DNA from: Deltaproteobacteria bacterium
Lineage (GTDB): Bacteria > Myxococcota_A > UBA796 > GCA-2862545
DNA length: 33,545 nucleotides
Assembly: GCA_011376105.1 (NCBI GenBank)
Contig: DRPG01000452.1
Location: forward strand, 1 to 33,545
Direction: 5' to 3'
A model generated the notes under the pieces. The model searched no databases and was not told where the DNA came from. It worked only from the letters and a program-made list of their open reading frames with translations. Shown here one piece after another: positions 8,696 to 29,530 of this stretch. The position numbers were made by a program, and so were the translations under genes. Position 1 is the stretch's first letter. Every line of letters begins with the position of its first letter.

Positions 8696-10290
8696 CCCAG
8701 CTCCCGGCAGGTCGCGCGATCCCTGGCCCCCACCTGGGGGCTCCAGGTGGCCATCACGTCGATCTCCAGGGCGTGGCTGACCCCGATGAAGCGAGCGACG
8801 GCCTCGCGCTGGACCCGCCCGGAGGCCAGCCCCTGGATCAGGGAGGAGGCCAGCCGCACGACCTGGGGCCGCAGCAGCACCATCGCCTCCACGATCGTCC
8901 TGGAGAACTCGCTGGCGTCGAGGCACAGCCGCACCCCGCCGCGCCGCAGCGCGCTCAGGGGTGGGATCAGCTGTTTGGGATCGCCGGACAGGAACAGCTC
9001 GTCCAGCGCGATCACCAGCAGCCGGGGGGGCACCGCCCCGGGGAGCTGCCCGAGGAGCGTGCGGGGCGGGATCTTGAGCAGGGTCGGGGGGAACAGACGC
9101 GCGTGCACCGGCAGCTCGTCCCCCGGAGCCTCAGCCAGGGCCAGCTGGAACCAGTGGAGATCCCAGCCCACGTGGGCGGCCCGCTCGGCGGAGAGCTCGA
9201 CATGATGCTCTGGGGGCCCCCCGATCTCCAGCACCCACCGTGTGAGCTCTCCGGTCTCGAGGCTCACCGCCTCCCGGGTCTGGATCACGCTGAGCTCGCT
9301 GTCCGGTGGCAGCGAGACATACCCTGAGCCCCCGGGATCGAGGGGATCCGCCACCGCCACCCGGTCCTTGCCCGTGGCCTTCGACAGGGTCAGGCCCGCC
9401 TCTGCGGCGGCCAGCACCTCGGAGACCGTGGTCACCCGCCCATCGAGGCGCTTGACCCCGATGCTGACCGACAGAGACTCTCCGTCGGGGAGCTGGACCC
9501 GATCGGGCACCCGCGCCCGCACCCGCTCGGCGATCTCGACCGCCTCCCAGGTGCGCGTCTGAGGCAGCAGGACGAGGAACTCATCGCCTCCGACCCGAGC
9601 CACCGTGTCGCCGGAGCGCACCGCCTCGACCAGGGTCTGGGCCAGGGTCCGCAGGACGTGATCGCCGGTGGCGAGCCCGTGGCGATCGTTGACCCGCTTG
9701 AAGTCGTCGCAGTCGATCAGCAGCGCGATCAGTGGTCCCTGGCCCCGCTCCCGCGCAGCGGTCTCGCGGATCAGCAGGTGCTCGAGGCCCCGGCGGTTCA
9801 GGACGTCGGTCAGGGGATCCCGCAGCGCCCAACGGGACAGCCGAGCGCTGGCCCTCGCGATCGCCCGGGCAGAGCGGAGCACCCGGGTGAGCAGCGGGCT
9901 CTCCAGCTCCCTGGGCTCCACCACGTCGTCGAACCCCTCGAGGCAGGCCTCGTGTAGAGGCTCCACCGTGGACGCCTCACACAGCGCCACCAGCGCGACC
10001 TGAGACGCCGTGCGTCGCAGCTCTGCGGCCACAGCGAGCCAGGCCGCGGCCTCCTCGGGGGGCTCCACCAGGGCGCGCCCCACCAGCACACAGCCGATGG
10101 CCTCGGTCCGGAGCACCCGCAGCGCGCTGCGCATCGAGCCACAGACGCGCAGCTCAGTGCCACCCCCGATCCTGGGGAGGGCGCCCCGGACGCACACCAG
10201 CTCAGCCGGCGAGAGACCAGCCACCAGGATCTTCAGCGAAGATCCTCGGGTGGATGGCGCCATCAGCTCACCGCCGGGAGGCACCGACAA
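8671..10290 (-). CDS. Pseudo-receiver - GGDEF - degenerate EAL-like signalling protein (start could be 10263)
   Basis: RxxD I-site plus GGDEF (RSGDTVARVGGDEF); N-terminal REC-like fold with Gly at the phosphoacceptor region (IGCVLVGRAL); C-terminus resembles EAL without catalytic residues. Confidence 0.85.
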   Translation of the reverse strand: MSVPPGGELMAPSTRGSSLKILVAGLSPAELVCVRGALPRIGGGTELRVCGSMRSALRVLRTEAIGCVLVGRALVEPPEEAAAWLAVAAELRRTASQVALVALCEASTVEPLHEACLEGFDDVVEPRELESPLLTRVLRSARAIARASARLSRWALRDPLTDVLNRRGLEHLLIRETAARERGQGPLIALLIDCDDFKRVNDRHGLATGDHVLRTLAQTLVEAVRSGDTVARVGGDEFLVLLPQTRTWEAVEIAERVRARVPDRVQLPDGESLSVSIGVKRLDGRVTTVSEVLAAAEAGLTLSKATGKDRVAVADPLDPGGSGYVSLPPDSELSVIQTREAVSLETGELTRWVLEIGGPPEHHVELSAERAAHVGWDLHWFQLALAEAPGDELPVHARLFPPTLLKIPPRTLLGQLPGAVPPRLLVIALDELFLSGDPKQLIPPLSALRRGGVRLCLDASEFSRTIVEAMVLLRPQVVRLASSLIQGLASGRVQREAVARFIGVSHALEIDVMATWSPQVGARDRATCRELGVRYWLGP

Positions 10291-11035
10291 CGATCACGGT
10301 GACGTTGTCCTCGCTGCCGGCCTCCAGCGCCTCCTCAGTGAGGACGTGGGCTAGCATGTCGAGCGGGGTCGAGGCCACGATCCGCTGGATCGCAGCGTCG
10401 TCGAGTGGATCCGTCATCCCGTCGCTGCAGAGCACGAACACGTCCCCGGGCTCCACCATCCGGGTGGTGGTGTCGGGCTCGACCGGCCCGTGGAACCCCA
10501 CGGACTGGGTGAGGATGTGCTTGTGCGGGAGCAGGCGCGCCAGCTCGGGCGTGAGGCGCCCGGCGTCGATCTCCTGCTGGACCACGGTGTGATCCCGGGT
10601 GAGACGCACCAGGCGCCCCTCCCGGAACAGGTAGGCCCGGCTGTCGCCCACGTGGGCGAGGTGCGCATGATCGCCATCGACCACCAGCACGACCAGGGTC
10701 GTGCCCATGCCCCGGGTCTCAGGGCGTGCCTCGGCCTCCCTCCGGATGTGGATGCTCGCCTGGTTCATCGCGTAGCGGAGCCGCTCGCGCAGGATGTCGG
10801 CGGGATCCTCGGACGCGTGATCCCGGACCAGCCTCGTCTCGTCGGGATCCACCGCGCCCACCAGGGTCTGGTGCACGACCTCGGTGGCCATCGCCGAGGC
10901 CACCTCCCCCGCGGCGTGGCCTCCCATCCCATCTGCCACCACGAACACGCCGCCGTCGAGATCGATCAACCAGGCATCTTCGTTGTGCTCTCGTACGGGC
11001 CCTGTCTCCGAGCGCGCGTACGCTTCCAACTCCAT
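10268..11035 (-). CDS. PP2C-family Ser/Thr protein phosphatase (Stp/PrpC-like)
   Basis: TGPVREHNEDAW, VVADGMGGHAAGEVAS, HVGDSRAYL, CSDGMTDPL, EDNVTVIVV motifs. Confidence 0.95.
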   Translation of the reverse strand: MELEAYARSETGPVREHNEDAWLIDLDGGVFVVADGMGGHAAGEVASAMATEVVHQTLVGAVDPDETRLVRDHASEDPADILRERLRYAMNQASIHIRREAEARPETRGMGTTLVVLVVDGDHAHLAHVGDSRAYLFREGRLVRLTRDHTVVQQEIDAGRLTPELARLLPHKHILTQSVGFHGPVEPDTTTRMVEPGDVFVLCSDGMTDPLDDAAIQRIVASTPLDMLAHVLTEEALEAGSEDNVTVIVVGASRR

Positions 11036-11171: not shown

Positions 11172-14100
11172 GTGAGCGACGCCGACAGCCCACGTGTCAT
11201 CATCGGGGAGCCAGCGCCGGGGGACCGGATCGGTGACTACGTGGTGCTCGATCGTCTGGCGCGGGGCGGCATGGCCACGGTCCTGTCGGTCCGCCACACC
11301 GAGAGCCAGGAGGAGGTGGCGCTGAAGCTGCTGCTGTCCCTGGCCCTGACGGACGAGTCCCAGGGCCGGTTCCGGCGCGAGTTCCGGGCCCTGTCGAGGC
11401 TGCACCACCCCAACGTGCTCCGGGTCTACGAGTGGGGCCTGCTCGGCGATCGCCCCTGGTTCACCATGGAGCGCCTCGAGGGGCACGATCTCCGAGAAGA
11501 GGTCGGGCTCCTCGAGGGCCTACCTCTGTCCGAGCGCTTCGCCCGGGCGGAGGACATCCTCAAGCAGGTCGCCCGGGCCCTGGCCTACGTCCATGAGCGT
11601 GGGCTGGTCCACCGCGACGTGACCCCGGGCAACATCTTCGTGCTCCAGGACGGCACGGTGAAGCTGATGGACTTCGGCGTGGTCAAGGAGGCGGGCGCCG
11701 ATCTCACCGCAGCGGGCGAGGTGATCGGCACCATCGCCTACATGGCGCCGGAGCAGATCACCGGAGAGGGGATCGACTCCCGGGCTGATCTGTACTCGCT
11801 GGGCGCGGTCCTTTACCTGCTGCTGACCGGCCGCCGGGCGTTCTCCGCCCACACGATCCATGGCTTCATGGAGAAGCACCTCAACGCCCGACCCCGGCCT
11901 CCCTCGGAGCTGGTCCCGGCCGTGCCCGCCCGCCTCGAGGCGATCTGCCTCCGGCTGCTGCAGAAGGCGCCCTCGGATCGGTTCGCGTCGGCCAGCCACC
12001 TGCTGCACGTGCTCGGGGATCTCGAGCACGGGTTCGATCTCGAGGGCCAGTTCCCCAGGCGCACCGTCGGGCGCACCCTGCTCAAGGCCCGCCTGCGGGA
12101 GGCCGTGGACGCGGTGGCCCATGGGCGCGAGGGGCGCGCCCTGCTGCTGTCGGGCCCCAACGGCCAGGGCAAGACGCGCCTGCTGGAGGTCGCCGAGCAC
12201 CACGCCCGGCGCCTCGGCCTCCCCGTCGCCACCGGGCGCTGCCGACACCACGATCGCCCGTTCGGAGCCTTCTCCAGCATCTACCAGGCGTTCAGAGGCG
12301 ATGCTCCCCCCGCAGCCCTCGAGGCGGTGTTCCGGGGTGATGATGGTCAGGTCTGGGAGCGCTACCCGATCCTCTCAGCGTTCCGCGAGCTGGTGATCGC
12401 GTCCGCTCCGCTGGTGCTGATCCTCGACGACCTCGATCGAGCGGATCCGGCCACCGTGGAGCTGCTGTGCTACCTGGTGCGCAACACCCTGGAGCTGGTG
12501 GCTGAGCCCGTGCTGCTGCTGATCGGCCACGACAGCGGGGAGCGGCGGATCCGAGCCCAGCTCGAGAGCCTCGCTCCGGTGGAGGGCCTCGAGATCCCAC
12601 CGCTGGACGCGTCCGAGGTCGAGGAGCTCGTGGTCAGCCTGATCGGCAGCAACGAGGCCTCGCTGGCCCTGGCCGCGAGGCTCCACGTGGAGGGCAACGG
12701 CTCTCCGGCCCTGATCGCCGACATGCTCCGGGGCCTGATGGACGACGAGCTCATCGTCAAGGAAGACACAGGGAGCTGGCGGCTGGTCATCGCCGCCGCC
12801 GAGATCACCCGCTCCAGGCTCCCGATGCCCGCGTCCCTGCGCCAGGCACTGCAGGAGCGCCTGGCGCCGCTGTCCGAGGACGCGCTGGTGGTGGGTCGCG
12901 TCCTCGCCCACGCCCGCAACAAGCTGAACCTCGACGTGCTGGTGGCGGCGGCCCCGTTCGAGGAGGAGCAGGTGGTCGAGGCCCTCGACGAGCTGCTCGA
13001 CGCCGGCATCGTCCAGGAGCAGCGCGCCGAGGACATCGAGCAGGTCGAGCTGTGCCACGGTCGCTTCCGGGAGGTGCTCGCCGACGGGGTCCCCCCCGCC
13101 ACCCGCCGTGGCATCCACCTCGCCCTAGGAGAGACGCTGGAGCGCCAGCACCGCGACCACATCCACAGCGTGGTCGAGGAGCTGGCGTACCACTTCGAGC
13201 ACGCCCAGCTCGCGACCAAGGCCTACCAGTACCTGGTGCTCACCGCTCAGCACCACCTACACCGCAGCCTCAACCAGGAGGCCCTGGGGTTCCTCGATCG
13301 GGCGGTGGCGATCGAGCCCCGGGCGCGGCCCTACATGCTGCTCGACGACGCTGACCAGCGCCTGGCGGAGGTCCACCTGGCGATCGCCCAGGCACGCCAC
13401 GCCCTGGGGCAGCTGCCCAGCGCGGTCGCCGCCACCCAGCTGGCCCAGGCCCTGGCCCGGGCCGTGCGCGATCCAGGCCTCGAGTCGAGGGTGGCCTCTG
13501 AGCTGGGCTCCCAGCTGCGCCAACAGGGCAGCTCCGAGTCGGCCGAGGAGCAGTGCAGGCTGGCGATCCAGCGCGCGGAGGAGGCCGGCGATCAGCGGCT
13601 GCTGCCCCGGCCTCTGTACCAGCTCGGCGGGATCCTCTGGACCCAGGGCGATCTGGGGGAGGCCGAGCGGATGTGGCGTCGCTCATTGCAGATCGCCCAG
13701 CAGGTCGGGGACGAGCGCGCCCAGGGCAACGGCTACAACGGACTGGCGATCCTCGCGATCTGCCGGGGCCAGTCGATGGAGGCACGGCGCTGGTTCGAGC
13801 AGTCCGCCACCCTGTTCGAGCGCCTGGGGATGCTCGCACCGCTGGTGATCGCCCGGGTGAACCTGATCGAGCTGTACCTGAACACCGGGATCCTCCGGAA
13901 GGCCCTGGCGCTGGCCGATCGCACCCTGTCTCAGGCCAAGGAGGTGGGCCACCCCCAGGGGATCGCGCTGGGGAAGGGCTGGCGAGCCCGGGTCCTGCTG
14001 ACCCTGGGGCGGGCCACTGAGGCCGAGCGGGAGGCGAGGGAGGCCTGGAGCCACGTCCGGGGGCTGGCCAACAGAGAAGATGAGGCCCTGATCCTGGGCA

Positions 14101-14603
14101 CCCGGACGCTGATCTGCCTCGACGCAGGGCGCTGGTCCGAGGCCCTGGAGCTGATCGTCCAGCTGCTGGATGTCCTCGACATCTACGATCACGAGGGGAT
14201 CGGCCCAGAGGTGACGGCCTGGCAGGCGCTGGCCCTGTGTCAGCTCGAGCGACACGCCGAGGCTCAGGCGCTGCTCGAGGCGCTCCCGTCCCGCCCCGAG
14301 CCCTGGCCCCACATCCAGATCCGGGCGGATCTGGCCCTGGGACAGGCCCTGCTGGCGCTGCAGCAGCGCCCCGGGGCCAGATCCGCGCTGCAGCGGGCCC
14401 TGGCCGCGAGCGAGGCCAACGGCTACCGCTACTTTCAGCTGGTGGCCCACTCAGCGCTGGTGCGGGCAGTAGACGACGAGAGCACCCGCACCCGGCACGC
14501 CCGGGTGGCCTCGGGCCTCGCGCGCTCCCTGGCCGCGAACCTGCCCAGAGACGACGTCGATCGCTTCCTGCGGGCCCACGACGGCCCGGGCGCGGCGGCC
14601 TGA
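11172..14603 (+). CDS. Ser/Thr protein kinase - AAA ATPase - TPR protein (kinase 1)
   Basis: GTG start; GGMATV loop, VALK, HRDVTPGN, DFG, APE; Walker A GPNGQGKT, Walker B LVLILDDLD; TPR-rich C-terminus. Confidence 0.93.
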   Translation: MSDADSPRVIIGEPAPGDRIGDYVVLDRLARGGMATVLSVRHTESQEEVALKLLLSLALTDESQGRFRREFRALSRLHHPNVLRVYEWGLLGDRPWFTMERLEGHDLREEVGLLEGLPLSERFARAEDILKQVARALAYVHERGLVHRDVTPGNIFVLQDGTVKLMDFGVVKEAGADLTAAGEVIGTIAYMAPEQITGEGIDSRADLYSLGAVLYLLLTGRRAFSAHTIHGFMEKHLNARPRPPSELVPAVPARLEAICLRLLQKAPSDRFASASHLLHVLGDLEHGFDLEGQFPRRTVGRTLLKARLREAVDAVAHGREGRALLLSGPNGQGKTRLLEVAEHHARRLGLPVATGRCRHHDRPFGAFSSIYQAFRGDAPPAALEAVFRGDDGQVWERYPILSAFRELVIASAPLVLILDDLDRADPATVELLCYLVRNTLELVAEPVLLLIGHDSGERRIRAQLESLAPVEGLEIPPLDASEVEELVVSLIGSNEASLALAARLHVEGNGSPALIADMLRGLMDDELIVKEDTGSWRLVIAAAEITRSRLPMPASLRQALQERLAPLSEDALVVGRVLAHARNKLNLDVLVAAAPFEEEQVVEALDELLDAGIVQEQRAEDIEQVELCHGRFREVLADGVPPATRRGIHLALGETLERQHRDHIHSVVEELAYHFEHAQLATKAYQYLVLTAQHHLHRSLNQEALGFLDRAVAIEPRARPYMLLDDADQRLAEVHLAIAQARHALGQLPSAVAATQLAQALARAVRDPGLESRVASELGSQLRQQGSSESAEEQCRLAIQRAEEAGDQRLLPRPLYQLGGILWTQGDLGEAERMWRRSLQIAQQVGDERAQGNGYNGLAILAICRGQSMEARRWFEQSATLFERLGMLAPLVIARVNLIELYLNTGILRKALALADRTLSQAKEVGHPQGIALGKGWRARVLLTLGRATEAEREAREAWSHVRGLANREDEALILGTRTLICLDAGRWSEALELIVQLLDVLDIYDHEGIGPEVTAWQALALCQLERHAEAQALLEALPSRPEPWPHIQIRADLALGQALLALQQRPGARSALQRALAASEANGYRYFQLVAHSALVRAVDDESTRTRHARVASGLARSLAANLPRDDVDRFLRAHDGPGAAA

Positions 14604-14679
14604 GATACAGTCCCGTCATGGTGCTCAGCTTCCGGATCCCCACGACATCCACCCGATCGAGGTCTGCTGGATCCACTCG

Positions 14680-17600
14680 ATGAACCGAGACGAAGCCGGC
14701 TGGGCCTCAGGCCTCGGCCCCCCCGGGCCCGGAGACGTAGTCGGGCACTACACCATCGAGCGACTCCTCGGCTCAGGCGGCATGGCCAGCGTCTTCGAGG
14801 CCAACGATCCCCAGGGGGAGACGGTCGCCCTGAAGATCCTCGATCCAAGCCGGGTCCTCGACGAAGACGTCAAGCGCTTCGCCCGCGAGTACGAGGCCCT
14901 GTCGCGGATGGATCACGACAACATCGTCGAGGTCTTCGAGGCCGGCGTGCACGAGGGCTACCCGTGGATCACCATGGAGCTGATCGACGGCACCGATCTC
15001 GAGAGCGAGATCGCCTCCTGGCAGGCCTCGGATCCACCCGATCGCTTCGTCCGGATCGAGCGGATCCTGCGGGGCCTGTGCCAGGGGCTGGCCTACATCC
15101 ACGAGCACGGGCTGGTTCACCGGGATCTCAAGCCGTCCAACGTGCTGCTCACCCGGGATCAGCAGCCCAAGATCAGCGACTTTGGCTTGGTCAAGGGAGA
15201 GAACACCGCGAGCACCCAGCTGACCATGGCGGGTCGCCTGGTGGGCACCGTCGCCTTCATGGCGCCGGAGCTGATCACCGACGAAGACGTCGATCTCCGC
15301 GCAGACCTGTACGCCCTCGGCGCGGTGCTGTACATGATGTGCACCTTCCGCCGCCCGATCGAGGCCGAGAGCGTGGCGGGCTACCTCGCTCGGCACCTCA
15401 CCGAGGTCCCCCGGGCGATCAGCGAGCTGGAGCCCGCCGCTCCCCGGATCTTCGAGCAGATCTGCCAGCGCCTGCTGCAGAAGGATCGGACCCTCCGCTA
15501 CCCGAACGCTCAGGCCATCCTGCAGACCCTCGATCGCACCGACGCGCCGAAGATCCCACCGCTGCGGGGGCGCGACGAGCTCCTCCAGCGCTGGGCCCGC
15601 TGGCTGCTGCAGCTCCAGGAGGGCGCAGGCTCCACCCAAGCCCTGCAGGGGGCACCGGGCAGCGGTCGGAGCCACCTCCTCGAGGTCTTGATCGATCAGG
15701 CGCGCTCCCATGGGCTGCGGATCGCGACGGCTTGTGGCCACCAGGGCTCGCTGCTGCAGCAGCTCGCCGAGGATCTCGGGGCCACCGGAGCCTGCTCGGG
15801 GGACACGCTGGAGGCCAGCCTTCGTAGCCACCCCACCGAGCCTACGCTGTTCGCGGTGGACGACGCAGACGCGGCTCCGGTCGACGAGATCCGTGAGCTG
15901 GCCCGCCTGGTGCGGCGCTGGGTGACCCTGGAGGCCCGGCCGCTGCTGCTGCTGCTCACCGTCCACGAGGCGGAGGGGGAGCTCGCGGCCCTGCTCAGCG
16001 GCTCCTCCACCGGGCTGCCCTGCGCTGTGGTGGCGCTGGAGCCCCTCGATCCCAAGTCCACCATCGCGATGGTCCGCGATCGGGGGATCTGCGGGCCGGT
16101 GGCGCCGGCGCTGGGCCGCAGGCTCCACGCCATGTACCGGGGGATCCCCGGCGCCATGCTCCAGCAGCTGGAGGCCCTGATCGAGGCCGGCTGGCTCTCC
16201 CCCCGGGGGGATCAGCTCCGCCCCACCCGGCCCCTGGATCAGTTCCGCAGGGGGGATCTCCCCGTGCCCGAGGCGGCGAGGGTGCGCATCGAGGCGCTCA
16301 TCGAGGCGCTCGATCCTCGCCCCCGTGAGATCATCCAGCTGATGTCCCTGCTGGATCGTCCCGCGAGCGCGGCCCTGATCGAGGGCTGTAGGCCCGACGA
16401 TCCCGCGACGCCCCGGCTGCTCGACGAGCTCGTCCGGCAGCGCCTGCTGTCCAGGGCCACCGTAGAGCACCAGGAGGTGCTGTCGCTGCACGATCCCTGC
16501 GCCGCCCGGATCGTGCGCTCGGGCCTGCAGCCTGAGCAGCGCCAGCGACTGCACGGGGCGCTGGCCAGCGCCTTGATCGCCCGGAGGCGCCGGGCCAACG
16601 CCCTGGAGATCGCGAGGCACCTGCAGGAGGCGGGGGATCTGGCCGCAGCCTGGCCGACCTACATCCAGGCCGCGCGGCGGGCCGCCCGGGACGGTCGCTT
16701 CTCCGAGGTCCTCGAGATCTGCAGCGCAGCCGCTGAGATCGCGCCCGGAGCGGCCGCAGGGCTCCCCGAAGACGAGGCGCTGGAGCACCGCCGCTGGCTG
16801 AACCTGCTCCAGGGGGAGGCCCTGGTCGCCCGCAGGGCCTGGCTCGAGGCGCTGGAGCCGCTGAGCCGGGCGGTCGAGGCCGCCCGCACCACCGGCGATC
16901 CCCGGGGGATCGCCCGCTGTGTGGGGCTGCAGGGGCGGGCCCTGTACCGGCTGTCCCGCTTCGACGAGGCCGCACCGCTGCTGCAGGAGGCCCTGCGCCT
17001 GACCGAGCCCGGCGCTCCGGATCGGGGCAGCACCGTCCGGGCCCTGGCCGACATCGAGCTGCGCAGGGGGAACCTCGAGCTCGCCGAGACGCTGTGGAAC
17101 GAGGCCCTGAGCGCGTCGCTGGGCACGGGCAGCCGGGACGCCGAGGCGAGGGCCCGCCGGGGCCTGGCCCACAGCCGGGCCCTGCGGGGGCGGCTGGTGG
17201 AGGCCAGCGAGCTGCTGTCTCAGGCCGACGATCTGCTGAACCCCGACGGAGACTACCGGGTGCGGGCTGCGGTGCTGACCCGGGCTGCAGAGCTCGACAT
17301 CACCGCGGGCAGGCTCGGCTCGGCTCTGTACCGGACCGAGCTGCTGATCGAGCTGGCCCGTCGCCACGGGCTGGGCGATCGGATGCCCCTGGCCTACGCC
17401 GCGATGGCGCAGATCCTGCGCGCCCTCGGGGAGGAGGAGGGCGCGATCAGCGCGACAGAGCAGGCGCTCGTGTTCGCCGAGGCCAGCGAGGGCCCCACCT
17501 GGAGCGCCCGGCTCCAGGTGGCGCGGGTGCTGATGGAGCTGGAGCGTCCCTCGGAGGCCTGGTCGGCCCTCCCCCCCCCCGACGAGGTCCCCCCCGGCCG

Positions 17601-18009
17601 GGTCGACGATCCCGAGGGGCAGCTGCTGGTGCTCCATGCCCGCTTCGCGGCCTCCACCGAGCCCAGCCGGGCCGAGCAGCTGTGCCGCACGGCCCTGGCC
17701 CGTCGCCCGCCCCTGCTGATCCCCGCCACCGCCACCATCGCGCTGGATGCGTCCAGGGCCCTGTTCACCGCGGGTCAGGCCACCGAGGCAGCCCAGGCCG
17801 CGGCCCGTGGGCTGAGGGCCCTGCGGGGGCCCGGATCAGACGGGCTCCGCCTCGAGCTGCTGCTGGCCCAACACCAGGCCGCCCCCGGAGACGAGACCCG
17901 CCGCACCATCCAGGGGATCCTCGAGCGGATGACGCCGCTGCTTCCCCCCCAGGCGACTCAGCGCTTCGCCCACCGGGCAGATCTGCGGCGGCTGAAGCCC
18001 GACCCGTGA
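14680..18009 (+). CDS. Ser/Thr protein kinase - AAA-like - TPR protein (kinase 2)
   Basis: GSGGMASV, VALK, HRDLKPSN, DFG; P-loop GAPGSGRS (Lys to Arg); TPR-like C-terminus. Confidence 0.92.
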   Translation: MNRDEAGWASGLGPPGPGDVVGHYTIERLLGSGGMASVFEANDPQGETVALKILDPSRVLDEDVKRFAREYEALSRMDHDNIVEVFEAGVHEGYPWITMELIDGTDLESEIASWQASDPPDRFVRIERILRGLCQGLAYIHEHGLVHRDLKPSNVLLTRDQQPKISDFGLVKGENTASTQLTMAGRLVGTVAFMAPELITDEDVDLRADLYALGAVLYMMCTFRRPIEAESVAGYLARHLTEVPRAISELEPAAPRIFEQICQRLLQKDRTLRYPNAQAILQTLDRTDAPKIPPLRGRDELLQRWARWLLQLQEGAGSTQALQGAPGSGRSHLLEVLIDQARSHGLRIATACGHQGSLLQQLAEDLGATGACSGDTLEASLRSHPTEPTLFAVDDADAAPVDEIRELARLVRRWVTLEARPLLLLLTVHEAEGELAALLSGSSTGLPCAVVALEPLDPKSTIAMVRDRGICGPVAPALGRRLHAMYRGIPGAMLQQLEALIEAGWLSPRGDQLRPTRPLDQFRRGDLPVPEAARVRIEALIEALDPRPREIIQLMSLLDRPASAALIEGCRPDDPATPRLLDELVRQRLLSRATVEHQEVLSLHDPCAARIVRSGLQPEQRQRLHGALASALIARRRRANALEIARHLQEAGDLAAAWPTYIQAARRAARDGRFSEVLEICSAAAEIAPGAAAGLPEDEALEHRRWLNLLQGEALVARRAWLEALEPLSRAVEAARTTGDPRGIARCVGLQGRALYRLSRFDEAAPLLQEALRLTEPGAPDRGSTVRALADIELRRGNLELAETLWNEALSASLGTGSRDAEARARRGLAHSRALRGRLVEASELLSQADDLLNPDGDYRVRAAVLTRAAELDITAGRLGSALYRTELLIELARRHGLGDRMPLAYAAMAQILRALGEEEGAISATEQALVFAEASEGPTWSARLQVARVLMELERPSEAWSALPPPDEVPPGRVDDPEGQLLVLHARFAASTEPSRAEQLCRTALARRPPLLIPATATIALDASRALFTAGQATEAAQAAARGLRALRGPGSDGLRLELLLAQHQAAPGDETRRTIQGILERMTPLLPPQATQRFAHRADLRRLKPDP

Positions 18010-18078
18010 GGCCATGGCGATCCCTCGGCACCACGCCCTCGATCCGATACGTCCCCTGCCCGACCCCGCGGATCATGG

Positions 18079-21000
18079 ATGGCTAAGGCAAACGACGAAC
18101 CCCTGGAGATGGGCGGGCTGCCGCTCAAGCCCGGTTCCCGTATTGGAAGCTATGTTTTCATGCGGGAGATCGGCAGCGGCGGCATGGCCCGGGTGCTCCT
18201 GGCCAAGGATCCAGCTGGCGCCCTGGTGGCGCTGAAGGTGCTACGCAAGTCCCGGTTCAAGACCGGGTTGGTACGGTTCCGTCGCGAGTTCCGGGCCTTG
18301 TCACGGATCAACCACCCCAACGTGATCCGGGTCGAGGCCTATGGGGATCTGCACGGTCACCCCTACATCGCGATGGAGTTCGTCGACGGCCCCGATCTAC
18401 ACTCCCGGATCCGGAGCTTCCGCACTTGGGATCCCGACAAGCGTTGGCGTCGGGTCGAGCAGATCCTCATCGATCTGTGCCGGGCGCTGTCCGCGATCCA
18501 TCGCCGGGGGCTGGTTCACCGGGATCTCAAGCCGTCCAACGTGCTGATCACCCGCGAGGGGGAGTGCAAGCTCACCGACTTCGGCATCGTCAAGGACCTC
18601 GATCCTTCCCACGATCCCCACCTGTCCACCACCCTGGTGGGCACCTGGGCCTACGCCTCCCCCGAGCAGATCACCGGTAGCCCGCTGGATCATCGCTCCG
18701 ATCTGTACTCCCTGGGCGTGATCTTGTTTGCGATGCTCACCGGCAAGCGCCCGTTCGTGGCCAACGACATGGCGGGCTACCTCACCCTGCACCGGGATCG
18801 ACCTGCGCCGGCTCCGAGGGACGTCAACCGGGACATCCCCGATCACCTCGACGAGATCTGCAGGAGGCTGCTGCAGAAGGCGCCGAGGGATCGCTACCAG
18901 TCCGCCCAGGAGATCCTGTATCGCCTCGAGGCCGAGGAGCGCGTGCCCCCGCCCAGCGAGGCGGACGGCTGGAACCCCCCGCTGGTGGGGCGGGCTCTCG
19001 AGATCGAGGCGATCACCGACGCGGTGGCGGGGCTCACCGCCAGCCGTGGCGGGGTGGTGATCCTCGAGGGGGACGACGGCGCAGGCAAGTCGAGGCTGCT
19101 GTCGGTGGCCATCGATCGCTCTCAGGCGCTAGGGATCCCGTTCCATCGCGGCGAGTTCCACTCAGAGGAGCCCACCTTCCGGGTCCTGCTCCGGATGGTG
19201 CAGCAGATCCTGGCCGATCAGGGGGAGCAGGCACCCGCGGCCCTCAAGGGCAGCATCGAGGCCTGGCTCAAGGGCAGGGAGGCCCCCAAGGACGCGGCCC
19301 ATGCGGTCTACGACGCGGCCCGGGAGGCCCTGGATCTAGTGCTCGACGACGGGCCCCAGCTGGTGGTCCTCGACGATCTGCACGAGGCGAACCCCCGGGA
19401 GCTGCACCTGCTGTCGTTCTTGGTCCGCACCCTGATCGGCAACGAGGACCTGCCGCTGTTGGTGATCGCCTCCCTCCGCCCCAAGGCCAACGCCGCCGCC
19501 GACGGCCTCGCCGCGGGCGAGGGGCTGGGGGTAGAGCCGATGGAGATGAGCGTGGGCGCGCTGTCCCGGGAGGATCTCGCGGAGATCCTGTTCGAGCTGG
19601 TGGGCGACTCGCTCGGCGCACGCCTGCTCGCCCAGCGGCTGCACAAGGAGACCGAGGGCAACGCCTACTTCGTCACCGAGTTCCTGCGCTCCCTGCTGTC
19701 CCAGGGGGTGATCCGCAAGACCGGCGACGGAGGCCACGAGCTGGGCATCGATCCCGACGAGATCGTCACCGGCCACCTCGAGATCCCGATCGGCGTGCGC
19801 CAGATGATGAAGAGCCGGCTGGACGCGATCGATCCCGAGGATCGGGGCGTGCTCGAGGTCCTGGCCGTCGAGTCGAGGGACGTCGATCTCGACGTGCTGC
19901 TGGACGTGCTCGACGAGGACGAGGAGATCGTGCTCGACAGCCTCGATCGGCTGCTCGCTTCGGGGATCGTGCGGGAGCGCCGGATCGGCGACACGATCTA
20001 CCACTCGGTGACCCACCGAAAGTTCGCCGACGTGGTGTACCGCGATCTCGACGCAGAGCGGAGGGCGTGGCTGCACCGGCGGATGGCCGCGGCGATGGAG
20101 CTGCACTACGCCAACCAGCCCGCAGCGCTGGAGATCGTCGGCGAGCACTACCGCAAGGCGGGGGACGCAGGCCGGGCCTACCGCTACCTGGTGGCCGCCG
20201 CCAAGCGGCTCGCCGATCGCTCCCTGATGCAGGAGGCCTGGGACCTGACGGAGAAGGCGGGCACCCTGGAGGGCTCAGCGATGGCGGATCTCCCGTCGGC
20301 GAGCTTTCGCTCTTTTCGTAGAGACAACCTCACGGTTCGAGCCACGGTGCTGTACAACCGGGCGGAGTGGGCCGACGCTGAGCAGACCTGGCGCGCGGTG
20401 TTGGCACTGTCCGAAGAGGACGCAGATCCAAGGGCGGCCTGTGAGGCCCGGCTGCGGCTGGCCACGGTGCTGCGCAGGCGGGGGCAGCACGACGACAGCC
20501 GCGAGTTCGCTGAGCTGGCCCTGGAGGCCAGCCGGCGGCTGCACTTCCGGGAGGGCGTCGCCGAGGCGCTGCACTGCATGGCCGCCCTGGCCTGGTCCGA
20601 GGGCCAGCTCGACGAGTGTGAGCGCCTGGCGAGCGAGGGGCTGCGGGTGGCCCAGGGCAACCAGCTAGCGGATCGCCGCGCCGAGCTGCTGCTGGCCCTG
20701 ACCGCGGCCCAGGCCACCCGGGGCCACCTCGCCGCGGCGACCAGCGGGCTGACCGAGGCCGAGGGCATCTTCCGAGAGCTCCGGATGAAGCGCCCCCGCT
20801 GCCTGGCCCTGGCCAACATCGCCGAGCTGCTGATGTGGCAGGGAGAGCCCCTGCAGGCTCGGCAGCGGGCCCACATCGCGGTCGAGCTGTCCCGGGAGCT
20901 GGACTACAAGCTCGGTCGCACCGCAGCCACCCGCGCCATGAGCGCGTCCGCCCTGGATCTCGGGCTGTACGAGGAGGCCGAGGAGGGGCTGCACGAGGCG

Positions 21001-21609
21001 CTACAGCTCGCCCGCAGCATCGATCTGCCCGAGGAGATCCTCGCCTGCCTGGTGGCCCTGACCCAGCTGTCGCTGGAGCGACGCGAGCTACAGCAGGCTC
21101 GCCAGTACGGCGCCCGGGGGATCGAGGTGGTGCTGCGGCGGGATCCAGAGCGCTACCTCCCCATCCTCCAGACCCACCTGGCCCGGGCCGAGGCCCCCAC
21201 CGATCGGGGCGCGGCCGAGGCCCTGATCCAGCGAGCGTCCGCCGCCCTGCCCGAGCTGCCCCTGCCCCGCAGGACCCAGGTCCAGCTGGGGCTGGCCTGG
21301 GCCAACCTCGGGATCCAGGACTACGCCGCCGCCCGGAGCGCAGCGAGGCTGGTGCTACAGACCGCCGGGGGCCGGGGCTTCCGCCTGCTGTCGCTCGAGG
21401 CCCGCGCCCTGATGGTCCAGCTCACCGACGGCGAGGAGCAGCAGACCCACCGAGTCGTCGGCCAAGAGCTGGCGCGGGACTTCCGCGCGGGCCTGGCGCC
21501 GGACATGGCGCGGGCCTTCATGCGGCGCCCGTTCCTCAAGTTCCTCGACGATCCGCCCCCCGTCCAGGGCTGCCCCTCCCCCGAGCGCGCCCCGTCCTCC
21601 GATGTCTGA
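18079..21609 (+). CDS. Ser/Thr protein kinase - AAA ATPase - TPR protein (kinase 3)
   Basis: GSGGMARV, VALK, HRDLKPSN, DFG, SPE; Walker A GDDGAGKS, Walker B LVVLDDLHEAN; TPR-like C-terminus. Confidence 0.93.
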   Translation: MAKANDEPLEMGGLPLKPGSRIGSYVFMREIGSGGMARVLLAKDPAGALVALKVLRKSRFKTGLVRFRREFRALSRINHPNVIRVEAYGDLHGHPYIAMEFVDGPDLHSRIRSFRTWDPDKRWRRVEQILIDLCRALSAIHRRGLVHRDLKPSNVLITREGECKLTDFGIVKDLDPSHDPHLSTTLVGTWAYASPEQITGSPLDHRSDLYSLGVILFAMLTGKRPFVANDMAGYLTLHRDRPAPAPRDVNRDIPDHLDEICRRLLQKAPRDRYQSAQEILYRLEAEERVPPPSEADGWNPPLVGRALEIEAITDAVAGLTASRGGVVILEGDDGAGKSRLLSVAIDRSQALGIPFHRGEFHSEEPTFRVLLRMVQQILADQGEQAPAALKGSIEAWLKGREAPKDAAHAVYDAAREALDLVLDDGPQLVVLDDLHEANPRELHLLSFLVRTLIGNEDLPLLVIASLRPKANAAADGLAAGEGLGVEPMEMSVGALSREDLAEILFELVGDSLGARLLAQRLHKETEGNAYFVTEFLRSLLSQGVIRKTGDGGHELGIDPDEIVTGHLEIPIGVRQMMKSRLDAIDPEDRGVLEVLAVESRDVDLDVLLDVLDEDEEIVLDSLDRLLASGIVRERRIGDTIYHSVTHRKFADVVYRDLDAERRAWLHRRMAAAMELHYANQPAALEIVGEHYRKAGDAGRAYRYLVAAAKRLADRSLMQEAWDLTEKAGTLEGSAMADLPSASFRSFRRDNLTVRATVLYNRAEWADAEQTWRAVLALSEEDADPRAACEARLRLATVLRRRGQHDDSREFAELALEASRRLHFREGVAEALHCMAALAWSEGQLDECERLASEGLRVAQGNQLADRRAELLLALTAAQATRGHLAAATSGLTEAEGIFRELRMKRPRCLALANIAELLMWQGEPLQARQRAHIAVELSRELDYKLGRTAATRAMSASALDLGLYEEAEEGLHEALQLARSIDLPEEILACLVALTQLSLERRELQQARQYGARGIEVVLRRDPERYLPILQTHLARAEAPTDRGAAEALIQRASAALPELPLPRRTQVQLGLAWANLGIQDYAAARSAARLVLQTAGGRGFRLLSLEARALMVQLTDGEEQQTHRVVGQELARDFRAGLAPDMARAFMRRPFLKFLDDPPPVQGCPSPERAPSSDV

Positions 21610-23152: not shown

Positions 23153-23252
23153 TGCCCCCGTGCCCCCGTGCCCCCGTGCCCCGTGCCCCGTGCCCCGTGC
23201 CCCGTGCCCCGTGCCCCCGTGCCCCGTGCCCCGTGCCCCGTGCCCCGTGCCC
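23153..23252. repeat. GTGCCCC(C) heptamer/octamer minisatellite, about 14 units
   Basis: Successive units of 8,8,7,7,7,7,7,8,7,7,7,7,6 bp from 23160, preceded by TGCCCCC. Confidence 0.98.
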
Positions 23253-24121: not shown

Positions 24122-24735
24122 CGGGATCCCATCGAGATCACGTCGGCGCCCAGGCGCTCGATCTGCGCTGGATCGTGGGTGACCCACAGCGCGGTGCGCC
24201 CGGCCAGCAGCGCCTCCACCGCACCCACCAGCGCTGGATCCAGGGCGGCGGTGGGCTCGTCCAGCAGCAGGACCTCGGGGGCGGTGGACAGGGCCAGGGC
24301 GAGGTGCAGGCGCTGGCGCTCTCCTCCAGACAGCGAGGCCCAGGGCTGCTCCCACGCAGCCTGTGGCAGCGACAGCCGGGCCGCGACCTCGCAGGGATCG
24401 GGTCCGTCCGGGGGGTGGGTGCGCAGGGTCTCGAGCCGGGCCCGCCAGGCCGCGGGGGTTGCGGAGACGATCGGGGCGCCCTGGGGCACATACGCGACCC
24501 GGGCCCGCCAGGTAGGCATCCCCCAGGCCTCTGGTGGGCGGCCATGCAGGGTGATCGTGCCCTCGTCCGCTGGATCGAGGCCGGCGAGCAGCCGCAGCAG
24601 CTGGGTCTTGCCGGTGCCCGACGCCCCCTGCACACAGCAGCTCGTGCCAGCCCGCAGGGTCAACCCGAGGCCCTGGAACAGGATCCGCTCCCCGATCCGA
24701 CGGGTCAGCCCTCGGGCCTCGAGCACCGCGCTCAA
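24118..24735 (-). CDS. fetA: ABC transporter ATPase, FetA-like
   Basis: Walker A GASGTGKT, LSGGERQR signature, LLLDEPTAALD; TTG start overlapping the DUF2063 stop. Confidence 0.85.
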   Translation of the reverse strand: MSAVLEARGLTRRIGERILFQGLGLTLRAGTSCCVQGASGTGKTQLLRLLAGLDPADEGTITLHGRPPEAWGMPTWRARVAYVPQGAPIVSATPAAWRARLETLRTHPPDGPDPCEVAARLSLPQAAWEQPWASLSGGERQRLHLALALSTAPEVLLLDEPTAALDPALVGAVEALLAGRTALWVTHDPAQIERLGADVISMGSR

Positions 24736-25520
24736 GGCTCACCAGGCGGCGCGGCCAGCTGGACCAGGCTCCGCTCCGAGAAGTCCCGGAACCAGGTCCC
24801 GATCTCATCGGTGAGGTGCTCGGCGTCGACGAGCCCCCGTGCGAAGACGTCCTCGATCGCCTCGGGCACCCCCCGCCCGGCCGCGATCCCCTGCAGGATC
24901 CCCCACGCGGGCAGCGGCACCACCCAGTGCCGCATCTTCCGGCCCCGACGGAACACCACCAGGGGAAAGTCGGCGGCCTGTAGCCCGGGCAGGGGCCGGC
25001 GTGACAGGGCGGCCGAGCGCAGGCTGTGGACGTTGTGCCTGAGCCGCAGCAGCCGAACGTGGGGCTGCAGCTGCAGACGGGGCATCGTCGCGAGCTCAGC
25101 TGGCTGGATCGGCCGCCCCTCCGCGGCGTCGAAGCCCTCCTGCACCGCACGGTCCAGCAGGGCCATCTCCACCAGGTGGGCGCCGACGCCGGGCTGCTCG
25201 GCGAGCCACCCGGGCAGCGCGTCGGCGATCCGGTTCAGGGTCCAGGACGACGGAGGATGATCCGCGAGATAGCGCCTCAGCAGGCGCTCCCCGGCCTCCT
25301 CGTCGTCCCCCTGCAGCAGGGCGGCGAGGCCAGGGACCTCATCGAGCAGTGCATCGTACAGGCGAAGCCGGTACTGCTGGACATAGATCCCGATCTGCTC
25401 CTCGGGGGAGCACACCGGCCCCCCGGCGAACCAGTCCCCCCGGACGGGAGCCGCCCCCCGGATCATCTCGACCATCTGCTCCCGCCAGTCCGGTGGCAGC
25501 TCCCCGCTGCGCTGCCCCAT
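24732..25520 (-). CDS. DUF2063 family protein (BufC/HvfC-like)
   Basis: IYVQQYRLRLYDALLDEVPGLAALLG-type motif, SWTLNRIADALPGWL; directly after a DUF692 gene. Confidence 0.85.
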   Translation of the reverse strand: MGQRSGELPPDWREQMVEMIRGAAPVRGDWFAGGPVCSPEEQIGIYVQQYRLRLYDALLDEVPGLAALLQGDDEEAGERLLRRYLADHPPSSWTLNRIADALPGWLAEQPGVGAHLVEMALLDRAVQEGFDAAEGRPIQPAELATMPRLQLQPHVRLLRLRHNVHSLRSAALSRRPLPGLQAADFPLVVFRRGRKMRHWVVPLPAWGILQGIAAGRGVPEAIEDVFARGLVDAEHLTDEIGTWFRDFSERSLVQLAAPPGEP

Positions 25521-26353
25521 CAGAGGCTCCCGGGGGCCCCGGACGGGGCGGGCTCCGCCCCCCCCGTGATCCGATCCCGCAGGGCCCGGGCCCGGGCCGC
25601 CTCCTCAGCCAGGCGCTCCCAGGAGGGGATGTTGCCGTCCCACTCGATGAGGGTGCTCACCGGACCGAGCCGCTCGATCGCGTGCGCGTACAGCGCCCAG
25701 ACCTCGTCGCACACCGGCGCGTCGTGGGTGTCGAGCCGGTAGCCCTCCCTCACCGAGTGCCCCGCGAGGTGGATCTGCACCACCCGATCAGCGGGGATCT
25801 GATCGAGGTAGTGCTCTGGATCGAAGCCATGGTTGATGGAGCTCACGAAGACGTTGTTGACATCGAGCAGCAGCGCGATGTCCGCGCGCTCCGCCAGCTC
25901 CGCGATGAAGGCCCACTCGGGCATCGTGCTCGCCTCGAAGGACAGGTAGGAAGAAGGATTCTCCAGGGCAAAGGGGCACGGCAGCGCTCCTGCGATGCGC
26001 TTGCTCCGCTCGACCATGTGCCCGAGGACCTCGGGCGTGTAGGGCACCGGCAGCAGATCGTGGGTGTTGACCCTCCGAGAGCGGGTGAAACAGACATGAT
26101 CGCTTAGCCAGGGCGTCCGGGTGTGGCGTGCCAGCGCGACCAGCCGCTGAGTGTGCTCGACGTCCTCTTCACCCCCGATCGACATCGACACCCCATGCTG
26201 CACCACGGGGTAGGCATCCAGGAGACGATCGAGGTGGAAGCGTGGAGATCCCCCGTCAACCATGAAGTTCTCGCTGATGATCTCGAACCAATCCATCTCA
26301 GGGCGGTGCTCGACGATGTGCCCGTAGTGCGGCACGCGAAAGCCGACCCCCAC
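25520..26353 (-). CDS. DUF692 family protein, MNIO (multinuclear non-heme iron oxidative) enzyme, BufB-like
   Basis: GVGFRVPHY, WFEIISENFM, HGVSMSIGG, LSDHVCF, ENPSSYL, LLLDVNNVFVSS, QIHLAGH, IEWDGNIP motifs; start may lie slightly upstream. Confidence 0.92.
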   Translation of the reverse strand: MGVGFRVPHYGHIVEHRPEMDWFEIISENFMVDGGSPRFHLDRLLDAYPVVQHGVSMSIGGEEDVEHTQRLVALARHTRTPWLSDHVCFTRSRRVNTHDLLPVPYTPEVLGHMVERSKRIAGALPCPFALENPSSYLSFEASTMPEWAFIAELAERADIALLLDVNNVFVSSINHGFDPEHYLDQIPADRVVQIHLAGHSVREGYRLDTHDAPVCDEVWALYAHAIERLGPVSTLIEWDGNIPSWERLAEEAARARALRDRITGGAEPAPSGAPGSL

Positions 26354-26457: not shown

Positions 26458-26594
26458 GAGCCGCGCCCCCGAGCCGCCGTCGAGCGCCCACGACACACGC
26501 TCAGGCGCACCCCACGACACACGCTCAGGCGCACCCCACGACACACGCTCAGGCGCACCCCACGACACACGCTCAGGCGCACCCCACGACACAA
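26451..26594 (-). CDS. Speculative 47-aa micro-ORF encoding (G)VRLSVCR x4 with 5 Cys, upstream of and co-directional with DUF692
   Basis: TTG TGT CGT [GGG GTG CGC CTG AGC GTG TGT CGT]x4 GGG CGC TCG ... TAG; no recognisable leader or strong RBS. Confidence 0.15.
   Translation of the reverse strand: MCRGVRLSVCRGVRLSVCRGVRLSVCRGVRLSVCRGRSTAARGRGSG
26489..26594. repeat. 24-bp tandem repeat, 4 full copies plus 10 bp
   Basis: cacgacacacgctcaggcgcaccc at 26489, 26513, 26537, 26561, partial at 26585. Confidence 0.98.
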
Positions 26595-26680: not shown

Positions 26681-28207
26681 TTGGGGAACCACTATCGACT
26701 CGAGAAGAAGCTTCACGATGGCACGCTCTCCAGCGTCTGGCTCGCTCGACACGTCGCCCTTGGGCGAGAGGTTGTCGTCAAGTTTTTTCGCTGTCCAGAC
26801 AAGGCCCAGCGCCAGCTCATCGGGGAGCTGAGCAGCCTGTGTCGGCTCCAGCACCCCCACAACGTGCACGTGATCGACACCACGGGCCGGGTCGAGGGCC
26901 CCGAGGGCTCGATCATCGGCCCGTTCCTGGTGATGGAGCATGTGCCGGGCCAGACCCTGCGTCGGATCCTGCGGACCCAGCGCCGGCTCGCCCCCTTGCA
27001 GGCCTGGCGCGTCGCCCTGCAGGTCCTGGCGGCCCTGTCCGAGGCCCACGGGTTTGGGATCGTGCACGGGGACATCAAGCCTGAGAACCTGATGTTGTGG
27101 GAGCCCGAGGGGCTCGATCGGTTGGTGAAGGTGATCGACTATGGGCTGACCGGCGGCTTCGCCGGCTCGCCGGAGCAGGGCGTGCTGACCTCCGGCACGC
27201 CTCAGTACATGGCGCCGGAGGTGGCGATGGGGCACGCCCCGAGCCCGTCGTCGGATCTGTACAGCCTGGGGATCGTCCTGTACGAGGCGCTGGCGGGGAG
27301 CCGTCCCTTCAACGCCGACGATCCCCACGAGGTCATGCAGCAGCAGATCCACAGCGAGCCCGTGCCGCTGCGGGCGCTGGCCCCGATCCCCGAGGAGCTG
27401 TCGCGGATCGTGCACCGGGCGCTGCGCAAGGATCCTGCGGCACGCTTCGCCAGCGCCCAGGAGCTCCTGGGCGCGATGCGCGCCCTGACCTGGCGCGAGC
27501 TTAGCCGCTACCAGTTCGCTGCCTTCTCTCCGATCGCCGCCGAGGAGTCGATCGCGACGGATCGGTTCACGCCCCAGGCCTCGGATGCAGCCAGCGGGCT
27601 GCTCGGCGATCCAGTGCAGCTGATCCATGCCGATCGGGAGCTGCCCACCCCCAGCCTCAACGCCACCGACACCACCCTCGCGGCCACGGCCACCCCCACC
27701 GTCTGGGTGCTGACCGGAGATCCGACCACCGAGCACTTGATCGTCGAGGAAGCGGTCTCGCTGCTCAGCCCCCGCTGCGAGGTCTCGCTGCTGAGCCCTG
27801 AGGCCCGGGAGAGCCAGCTGGCCCGTTTCCTCGAGGGCCGGGCGCGTCCACCGTGGGTCGTGGTGTTCGGCGACATGCACGTGCTGATCCAGGACGCCCT
27901 GCTGTCGAAGCTCCGCTGGTACCCGGAGACCACCAAGGTCCTGCTCTCGAGTCACCTCAACCCCGAGCTGCTCCAGACCACGGTGAACTTCGTCGGGCTC
28001 GATCAGCACCTCACGCTGCCCAGCGACGCGCGCAAGCTGGTGGCGGCGGTGAACATCTCGCTGGAGCGGAGCCGTAAGATCCACCACAGCCAGGATCAGC
28101 TCCGGCTCGCCCTGAGAGACGCGATCGACGATCTCGAGACCGCATGGCGCGCGGCCCACTCCCGCAACCTAGTCCCTTACCCCAAGAGCAAGGAAGCGAC
28201 AGGATGA
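26681..28207 (+). CDS. Atypical Ser/Thr protein kinase with degenerate receiver-like C-terminal domain (kinase 4)
   Basis: TTG start after GGAGGGG; VVVK, HGDIKPEN (HRD to HGD), IDYG (DFG to DYG), APE; C-terminus PTVWVLTGDPTTEHL...VVVFGDMHVLIQ...VLLSSHL resembles REC. Confidence 0.85.
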   Translation: MGNHYRLEKKLHDGTLSSVWLARHVALGREVVVKFFRCPDKAQRQLIGELSSLCRLQHPHNVHVIDTTGRVEGPEGSIIGPFLVMEHVPGQTLRRILRTQRRLAPLQAWRVALQVLAALSEAHGFGIVHGDIKPENLMLWEPEGLDRLVKVIDYGLTGGFAGSPEQGVLTSGTPQYMAPEVAMGHAPSPSSDLYSLGIVLYEALAGSRPFNADDPHEVMQQQIHSEPVPLRALAPIPEELSRIVHRALRKDPAARFASAQELLGAMRALTWRELSRYQFAAFSPIAAEESIATDRFTPQASDAASGLLGDPVQLIHADRELPTPSLNATDTTLAATATPTVWVLTGDPTTEHLIVEEAVSLLSPRCEVSLLSPEARESQLARFLEGRARPPWVVVFGDMHVLIQDALLSKLRWYPETTKVLLSSHLNPELLQTTVNFVGLDQHLTLPSDARKLVAAVNISLERSRKIHHSQDQLRLALRDAIDDLETAWRAAHSRNLVPYPKSKEATG

Positions 28208-29454
28208 CGACCCACAGCCTTGACATCGACTGTCGTGGCATGCGGTGCCCCGCCCCCATCCTCGAGGTGGCCCGGACCGCGCGGCGGCAGGTCCACCAGC
28301 CCACGGTGCTGCACATCTACGCCGACGACGACGACTTCCCCTCGGATCTGGAGGCCTGGTGTCGTGCGGTGGATGCACGGCTGCGTTGGCTCGCGCCCCC
28401 ACCGGAGGGGGGGTTCCACGGCATCGTCGCGCTGCACGGGGCCTCGCTGCCCTCCACCGACAGCCTCGTCTCTCCGACGATGATCCCAGGCCCCCAGCCC
28501 AGCCAGCGCCCCCGGGAGACCACTCTGTCGCCCCTGGGGCTGGATCCGGACGAGGGGGACACCGTGCCTTCGGCCCCCCCCCGGCCCCCCGGGGAGGCCC
28601 GGGGCTCCCCCCGGGATCGACAGCCCGACCTGCTGGATCTCCGTGGGATCCCACCCCACCTCGGGATCCTGCAGCTGTCCGGCACCCTGATGGGCCACGG
28701 GGGGAGGCTTAGGGTGATCTCCGACGATCCAAGCTTCCGGACCTCCCTGTACTCCTGGGCCTCGGCCACCTGCGCCGAGATCTCCAATGTGATCCAGGAG
28801 ACGGCGTTTTCCGCCACCATCTGCCTCCCCAGGGCCCCCGCCGGCACGCTGGCGCCGGCCCCGGTGGGCGCTGAGCTCGCGGATCAACCCACCCTGCTGG
28901 ACAGCCCGAGCCACACCAGCCCCTCCGACCCCGCACCGCTGCTGCCGACGAGGCGGGACGAGCAGGCCTCGCAGGATCGGACGACGATCCTGATCCTGCA
29001 CAACGACCTGGAGAGCCTGCTCGGCTGCATGCTCACCGCCAACGCCGCGGCAGCCCAGGGGATGGAGGTCGTCATCTTCTTCAGCTTCTGGGGGATCAAC
29101 GTGCTCCGTGGGAGCAACCCCCACGCCACGTCCTACCGCAAGAGCCTGATCCAGCGCCTGATGCAGTGGATGATGCCGCTGGGGCCCCGGCGCCAGCGGC
29201 TCGGCAAGATGGACATGGGGGGCGCGGGCACCCGGATGATGCAGCATCTGATGCGCAAGCAGAACGTGCTGCCCCTGGAGGAGTTGATGCGCCAGGCCAT
29301 CGATCAAGGCGTGCGCTTCCAGGTCTGCACCATGTCCATGGGGGTGATGGGGATCACCCGGGCCGATCTGATGGATCTGCCCAACCTGGAGTTCGGTGGC
29401 GTCACCGCGTTCGCCGAGTCCGCTCGGCGCTCGGCGGTGAGCCTCACCTTCTGA
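28204..29454 (+). CDS. TusA - TusA-like (Cys-less) - DsrE/DrsE-like fusion protein
   Basis: IDCRGMRCPAPILEVAR (CPxP), LLDLRGIPPHLGILQLSGTL...ISDDPSF, then TILILHNDLESLLGCM...VRFQVCTMSMGVMGITRADLMD...GGVTAFAESA; ATGA overlap with kinase 4. Confidence 0.85.
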   Translation: MTTHSLDIDCRGMRCPAPILEVARTARRQVHQPTVLHIYADDDDFPSDLEAWCRAVDARLRWLAPPPEGGFHGIVALHGASLPSTDSLVSPTMIPGPQPSQRPRETTLSPLGLDPDEGDTVPSAPPRPPGEARGSPRDRQPDLLDLRGIPPHLGILQLSGTLMGHGGRLRVISDDPSFRTSLYSWASATCAEISNVIQETAFSATICLPRAPAGTLAPAPVGAELADQPTLLDSPSHTSPSDPAPLLPTRRDEQASQDRTTILILHNDLESLLGCMLTANAAAAQGMEVVIFFSFWGINVLRGSNPHATSYRKSLIQRLMQWMMPLGPRRQRLGKMDMGGAGTRMMQHLMRKQNVLPLEELMRQAIDQGVRFQVCTMSMGVMGITRADLMDLPNLEFGGVTAFAESARRSAVSLTF

Positions 29455-29482: not shown

Positions 29483-29530
29483 CGATCCACGCCCAAAGGC
29501 CCACATCGATCCACGCCCAAAGGCCCACAC
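29483..29530. repeat. 24-bp tandem duplication (cgatccacgcccaaaggcccacat/c)
   Basis: Two copies, 1 mismatch, 28 bp after the TusA-DsrE stop. Confidence 0.95.

Follow-up and report, generated by a model that had tools for sequence, protein, structure and literature searches.

Because many relatives keep the two genes adjacent, the Ser/Thr kinase and the TusA-TusA'-DsrE fusion protein encoded side by side in the window (the whole stretch of 33,545 nucleotides that was analysed) are very probably coupled in function. The more specific reading, of a dedicated kinase/sulfur-relay module in which the kinase controls the relay, is given a probability of roughly 0.5. TusA and DsrE relay persulfide sulfur, and the phospho-regulated sulfur trafficking or persulfide sensing that an earlier note had inferred from this DNA is now the best-supported functional inference.

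Organization of the gene pair

The upstream gene (26681..28207, forward strand, with TTG as the sole possible start of the ORF) encodes a protein of 508 aa that was recognized as a Ser/Thr kinase with a C-terminal pseudo-receiver from its ORF and sequence, its Pkinase match (PF00069, 7e-39) and its orthologs. The downstream gene (28204..29454, forward strand) encodes the TusA-TusA'-DsrE fusion of 416 aa, identified by ORF, Pfam, structural model and Foldseek. As the earlier note had stated, the kinase stop and the fusion start overlap by 4 nt (ATGA, 28204..28207, forward strand), and a Shine-Dalgarno-like AAGGAAG (28190..28196, forward strand) lies seven bases 5' of the ATG.

The kinase domain covers residues 5-262 (26693..27466, forward strand), as delimited by Pfam and by a residue table over all paired kinases, and scores 134 bits against a Pkinase cut-off of 31.7. 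The note had called this kinase atypical for its HGD in place of HRD and its DYG in place of DFG. Both variants are present, at residues 129-131 and 153-155, and the HRD Arg is indeed missing, but the label is overstated: Lys34, Glu49, Asp131, Asn136 and Asp153 are all kept, so that the kinase is not clearly atypical. HGD and DYG are shared by the G298 relative and the ortholog of G015 (43%; that of G060, 39%) has HRD and DFG. Judged from its residues, the window kinase is probably active. Its fold and catalytic residues are those of Hanks-type Ser/Thr kinases, from which it differs by the added pseudo-receiver, the fixed partner gene and the lack of a recognized sensor domain.

Downstream of the kinase domain, Pfam gave no match. 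AlphaFold2, run on an 11-sequence alignment, modelled this part with a mean pLDDT of 90.6 and the order β1-α1-β2-α2-β3-α3-β4-α4-β5-α5, i.e. a (βα)5 fold with a long last helix, and the Foldseek matches of the model are receivers of response regulators (E 1e-6, target TM-score about 0.7). The core spans residues 340-457 (27698..28051, forward strand), as indicated by the model, Foldseek and an FGDMHV motif found in paralogs, and the long C-terminal helix extends to about residue 495. A pseudo-receiver is defined by the absence of any of five active-site residues (D, two acidic residues, T/S and K) (PMC12632262), and the domain qualifies because active-site residues are missing: Leu446 stands in place of the conserved Lys, and the acidic pair has degenerated. 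The description of the receiver as dead-looking was thus right insofar as it means a pseudo-receiver. The further claim that it lacked a clear phospho-Asp/Lys pair stands for the Lys but not fully for the Asp, as Asp398 (FGDMHV, end of β3) lies at or beside the phospho-acceptor position. HMMER puts Asp398 opposite the acceptor Asp in 6swf, the β3 spacing favours Gly397 and hhalign was uninformative; the residue is Gly in the G060 ortholog. Pseudo-receivers such as FrzS of Myxococcus xanthus (PMC1974792) share the (βα)5 fold without phosphotransfer residues (cf. PMC12632262), whereas the present domain is part of a Ser/Thr kinase that is paired with a sulfur-relay protein. Genes for a kinase of the window type with pseudo-receiver also occur at L097 (G168) and L098 (G273), with no fusion found beside them in the sequence examined; a weak receiver match in G014, likewise not beside a fusion in that sequence, has no DsrE fusion and was left out.

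The three domains that had been proposed for the fusion were borne out by profiles and models. TusA domain 1 (28213..28434, forward strand) carries Cys15 in a CPAP form of the CPxP motif and matches PF01206 (1e-12) and, by Foldseek, E. coli TusA (3lvj, TMt 0.82). The second TusA-like domain, TusA' (residues 142-207; 28627..28824, forward strand), was found by hhalign and in the AlphaFold model; it has the TusA fold without the Cys (IPPHLG), so that domain 1 is the only TusA fold with CPxP. It aligns with domain 1 with a probability of 98.8 (E 7e-17) and not with DsrE, and its model has the order β-α-β-α-β-β, as in domain 1. The DsrE domain, of the DrsE_2 type (28972..29451, forward strand; PF13686, 8e-38; Foldseek 3pnx, TMt 0.93), carries an invariant Cys375, the likely active Cys, in FQVCTMSMG. 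In the AlphaFold model of the whole fusion, TusA (pLDDT about 90) is followed by an unordered linker, TusA', a further linker and DsrE; among solved structures, the DsrE protein 3pnx and E. coli TusA come closest. Fold prediction thus supported the TusA, TusA', DsrE and receiver assignments alike. Fusions of relatives contain one to four TusA domains detectable by profile, and a Cys-less TusA-like stretch always precedes DsrE where it can be aligned.

Conservation of the gene pair in the phylum

Conserved adjacency in relatives was found. With a profile of the fusion, 379 sampled genomes of the phylum, many of them fragmented, yielded 18 fusion loci with upstream sequence, and a same-strand Ser/Thr kinase gene lies directly upstream at 16 of them, counts that are not independent trials because the loci are related by descent. 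At the other two, which are the second copies (B loci) of the window's own genome and of G015, the pseudo-receiver is kept and the kinase is absent; in the own genome (C432, L006) the upstream ORF, with a zinc ribbon and a receiver, shares an ATGA overlap with the TusA-TusA-TusA'-DsrE gene that follows. Both loci are also present in G015 (L027, L026), a metagenome-assembled genome from the same family, the kinase locus occurs in G060, from another family, and loci of G179, G211 and G298 that are fragmentary or were found through the receiver agree with the pairing. The -4 nt overlap is seen at seven loci, including those of G015A, G190, G225, G243 and G211, with GTGA in G368. The pair is absent from the same-genus genome G001 (82% complete) and its distribution is patchy. 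When a later sample of 145 genomes was used as a hold-out, a kinase ORF was directly upstream in all three new fusions. The survey and the hold-out together rule out chance adjacency. A kinase gene was seen on both flanks of the fusion at L126 (G395) and L085 (G273), the kinases of G273 being near copies, and a rhodanese gene adjoins the fusion at six loci.

Both partners form groups of their own in trees. A long-stemmed branch with 100/100 support separates the DsrE domains of the fusions, as one clade, from twelve unlinked DsrE2 domains. When the paired kinases were compared with other kinases of the same genomes, they fell into two dedicated clades, one of the window type with the receiver (100/99) and a second type (100/100) whose C-terminal part matches Response_reg and Hpt slightly below the Pfam cut-offs. 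A single joint clade of paired kinases was not rejected (AU p 0.081), so that two independent recruitments of the kinase are a possibility only.

The catalytic Lys, Asp, Asn and Asp are kept in the best domain of 18 of 19 paired kinases. The exception is G243, where Asp131 and the DFG Asp are lost, and this loss together with the two kinase-less loci implies that kinase activity is not needed everywhere. Three loci, those of G198, G260 and (from the hold-out, by profile) G395, encode two kinase domains ahead of the receiver. The receiver-proximal one in G198 and G260 is a degraded paired kinase of the first clade (Lys→Gln, Asp→Val or Ser, Asn→Val, DFG Asp→Glu), preceded in the same protein by an intact kinase domain; catalysis thus seems to have been lost and then replaced, which argues that activity matters there.

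A proposed kinase-controlled sulfur relay

In the proposed module, the TusA Cys would be loaded with persulfide (or thiosulfonate) sulfur, as suggested by the chemistry of the known TusA and DsrE sulfur carriers (PMC4175335, PMC3397948), and the sulfur would pass to or from the DsrE Cys, with rhodanese as a possible donor or acceptor where it is encoded next door. The pseudo-receiver may be the contact point with the fusion and dock the kinase, because the two kinase-less loci retain nothing else of the upstream gene. Phosphorylation of the fusion by the kinase would then gate the relay, possible sites being Thr376, beside the active Cys, and the Ser/Thr/Pro linkers. Given the many kinases per genome, the true substrate of the kinase could be elsewhere.

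Thr376 drew attention in a scan of the DsrE columns. Directly after the invariant Cys (Cys375-Thr376, 29326..29331, forward strand), every kinase-linked fusion examined has Thr or Ser (18 Thr and 2 Ser in 20 of 20 fusions), and 376 is the only position that is Thr or Ser in all fusions and in none of the unlinked relatives of the first set, the twelve of which have 6 Glu, 4 Gln and 2 Ala; the position was picked post hoc and represents one clade-level change. The three hold-out fusions have Ser, Thr and Thr. A Thr is also found in L129, one of the four unlinked DsrE2 of the hold-out, giving Thr or Ser in 1 of 16 unlinked DsrE2 overall. Thr376 is a candidate phosphosite suggested by this alignment, and is to be taken as a lead only. 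The strongest form of the proposal, in which the kinase acts on Thr376 beside the DsrE catalytic Cys and so switches transfer, with the pseudo-receiver as docking adapter, would link persulfide sulfur directly to Ser/Thr phosphorylation by a route undescribed before; in this full form we consider it rather unlikely.

Control may also run in the opposite direction, with the fusion serving as a sulfane-sulfur sensor subunit whose persulfidation, read via the pseudo-receiver, switches a kinase that acts on other proteins. A hydropathy scan detected no clear transmembrane segment in the paired kinases and Pfam no recognized sensor domain, which makes an input through a partner protein plausible, and the pseudo-receivers and the sub-threshold matches of the second clade suggest docking parts. 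However, the multiple TusA repeats and the neighbouring rhodanese fit sulfur flux better, and fusion and receiver persist without a kinase at two loci; sensing of this kind is a real but doubtful possibility.

Alternatively, the two genes may be co-expressed and no more, the kinase having unrelated targets and the adjacency reflecting a promoter shared for sulfur stress. These genomes are rich in kinases, with some 70-300 candidates each (69 to over 109 scored per genome), though this amounts to a few per cent of the genes. Against this, the pair is kept in many families, with two kinase clades, two kinase-less variants and short overlaps, and unlinked DsrE2 genes of the same phylum are without a nearby kinase: none was seen within about 1.5 kb at the 12 DsrE2 loci of other layout in the first set, nor within about 5 kb at the four unlinked loci of the hold-out. 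Mere co-expression is therefore improbable. Large open frames at L061-L065, which we take to be CoA-disulfide-reductase-like/rhodanese-like multidomain proteins with TusA and DsrE, share the TusA-DsrE fusion but have no nearby kinase, and their DsrE falls in the other DsrE clade.

A role of the fusion in dissimilatory sulfur oxidation of the Dsr or sHdr type, with the kinase as an ordinary regulator, has in its favour that TusA and DsrE2 belong to those pathways (PMC4175335, PMC3397948). The fusion does have the DrsE_2 domain and the active Cys of the DsrE2 group. That group is, however, genetically linked to Dsr or Hdr systems, and DsrE2A has two conserved Cys (PMC4175335), whereas a single Cys is conserved across the DsrE clade of the fusions, the NCBIfam DsrE2 equivalog scores 46 bits, below its cut-off of 210, and no dsr or hdr gene was recognized beside the listed loci. 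DsrA was below cut-off in all ten module genomes tested, on which ground the DsrAB pathway was rejected, and involvement in oxidation of either type is highly improbable. The rhd-tusA-dsrE2 sets of Allochromatium, Acidithiobacillus and Metallosphaera (PMC4175335, PMC3397948) share with the module a CPxP TusA, a DsrE2-type protein and often a rhodanese, and their proteins are persulfide/thiosulfonate carriers; in the module, a single protein combines TusA, an inactive TusA' and DsrE, a kinase gene is attached and DsrA stays below cut-off.

An anti-phage kinase that has a sulfur gene next to it by accident would fit the strong PADLOC matches to PD-T4-6 kinases. These matches are, however, essentially confined to the kinase domain, which every Hanks kinase has, PADLOC finds nothing in the fusion and no defence neighbourhood was recognized; a defence island was rejected, and this explanation has next to no probability.

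Significance

Sulfur relays built from TusA, DsrE and rhodanese have been studied mostly as metabolic plumbing under transcriptional control. A search of the open-access literature brought up no paper linking Ser/Thr kinases to TusA or DsrE, and the kinase/sulfur-relay pair seems to be undescribed. To judge from that literature, a kinase gene kept beside a distinct sulfur-relay clade throughout a phylum would be the first sign of a direct post-translational control or read-out of bacterial persulfide traffic. It also suggests what one of the many orphan Ser/Thr kinases in these genomes may do, and that pseudo-receivers may serve as partner-docking domains.

Other features of the window

Short tandem repeats, perfect or near-perfect, are present at 26487-26593 (24 bp x 4.5), 29483-29529 (24 bp x 2) and 23156-23252 (7 bp x 13), and a similar one is found at about 4530-4610 of L006, the second module locus of the own genome; they are mostly intergenic, and some directly precede both module loci. 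Divergently from the kinase gene, 24732-26353 (reverse strand) encodes a RiPP-modifying enzyme of the MbnB/TglH/ChrH type (PF05114, 7e-100) followed by a DUF2063 protein. Such enzymes modify Cys in peptides together with a DUF2063-type partner. This pair does not adjoin the kinase ortholog in G015. Further upstream, three large tandem Ser/Thr kinases of 1109-1176 aa (11172-21609, forward strand) group together in the kinase tree and are adjoined by a PP2C phosphatase gene (10268-11035, reverse strand).
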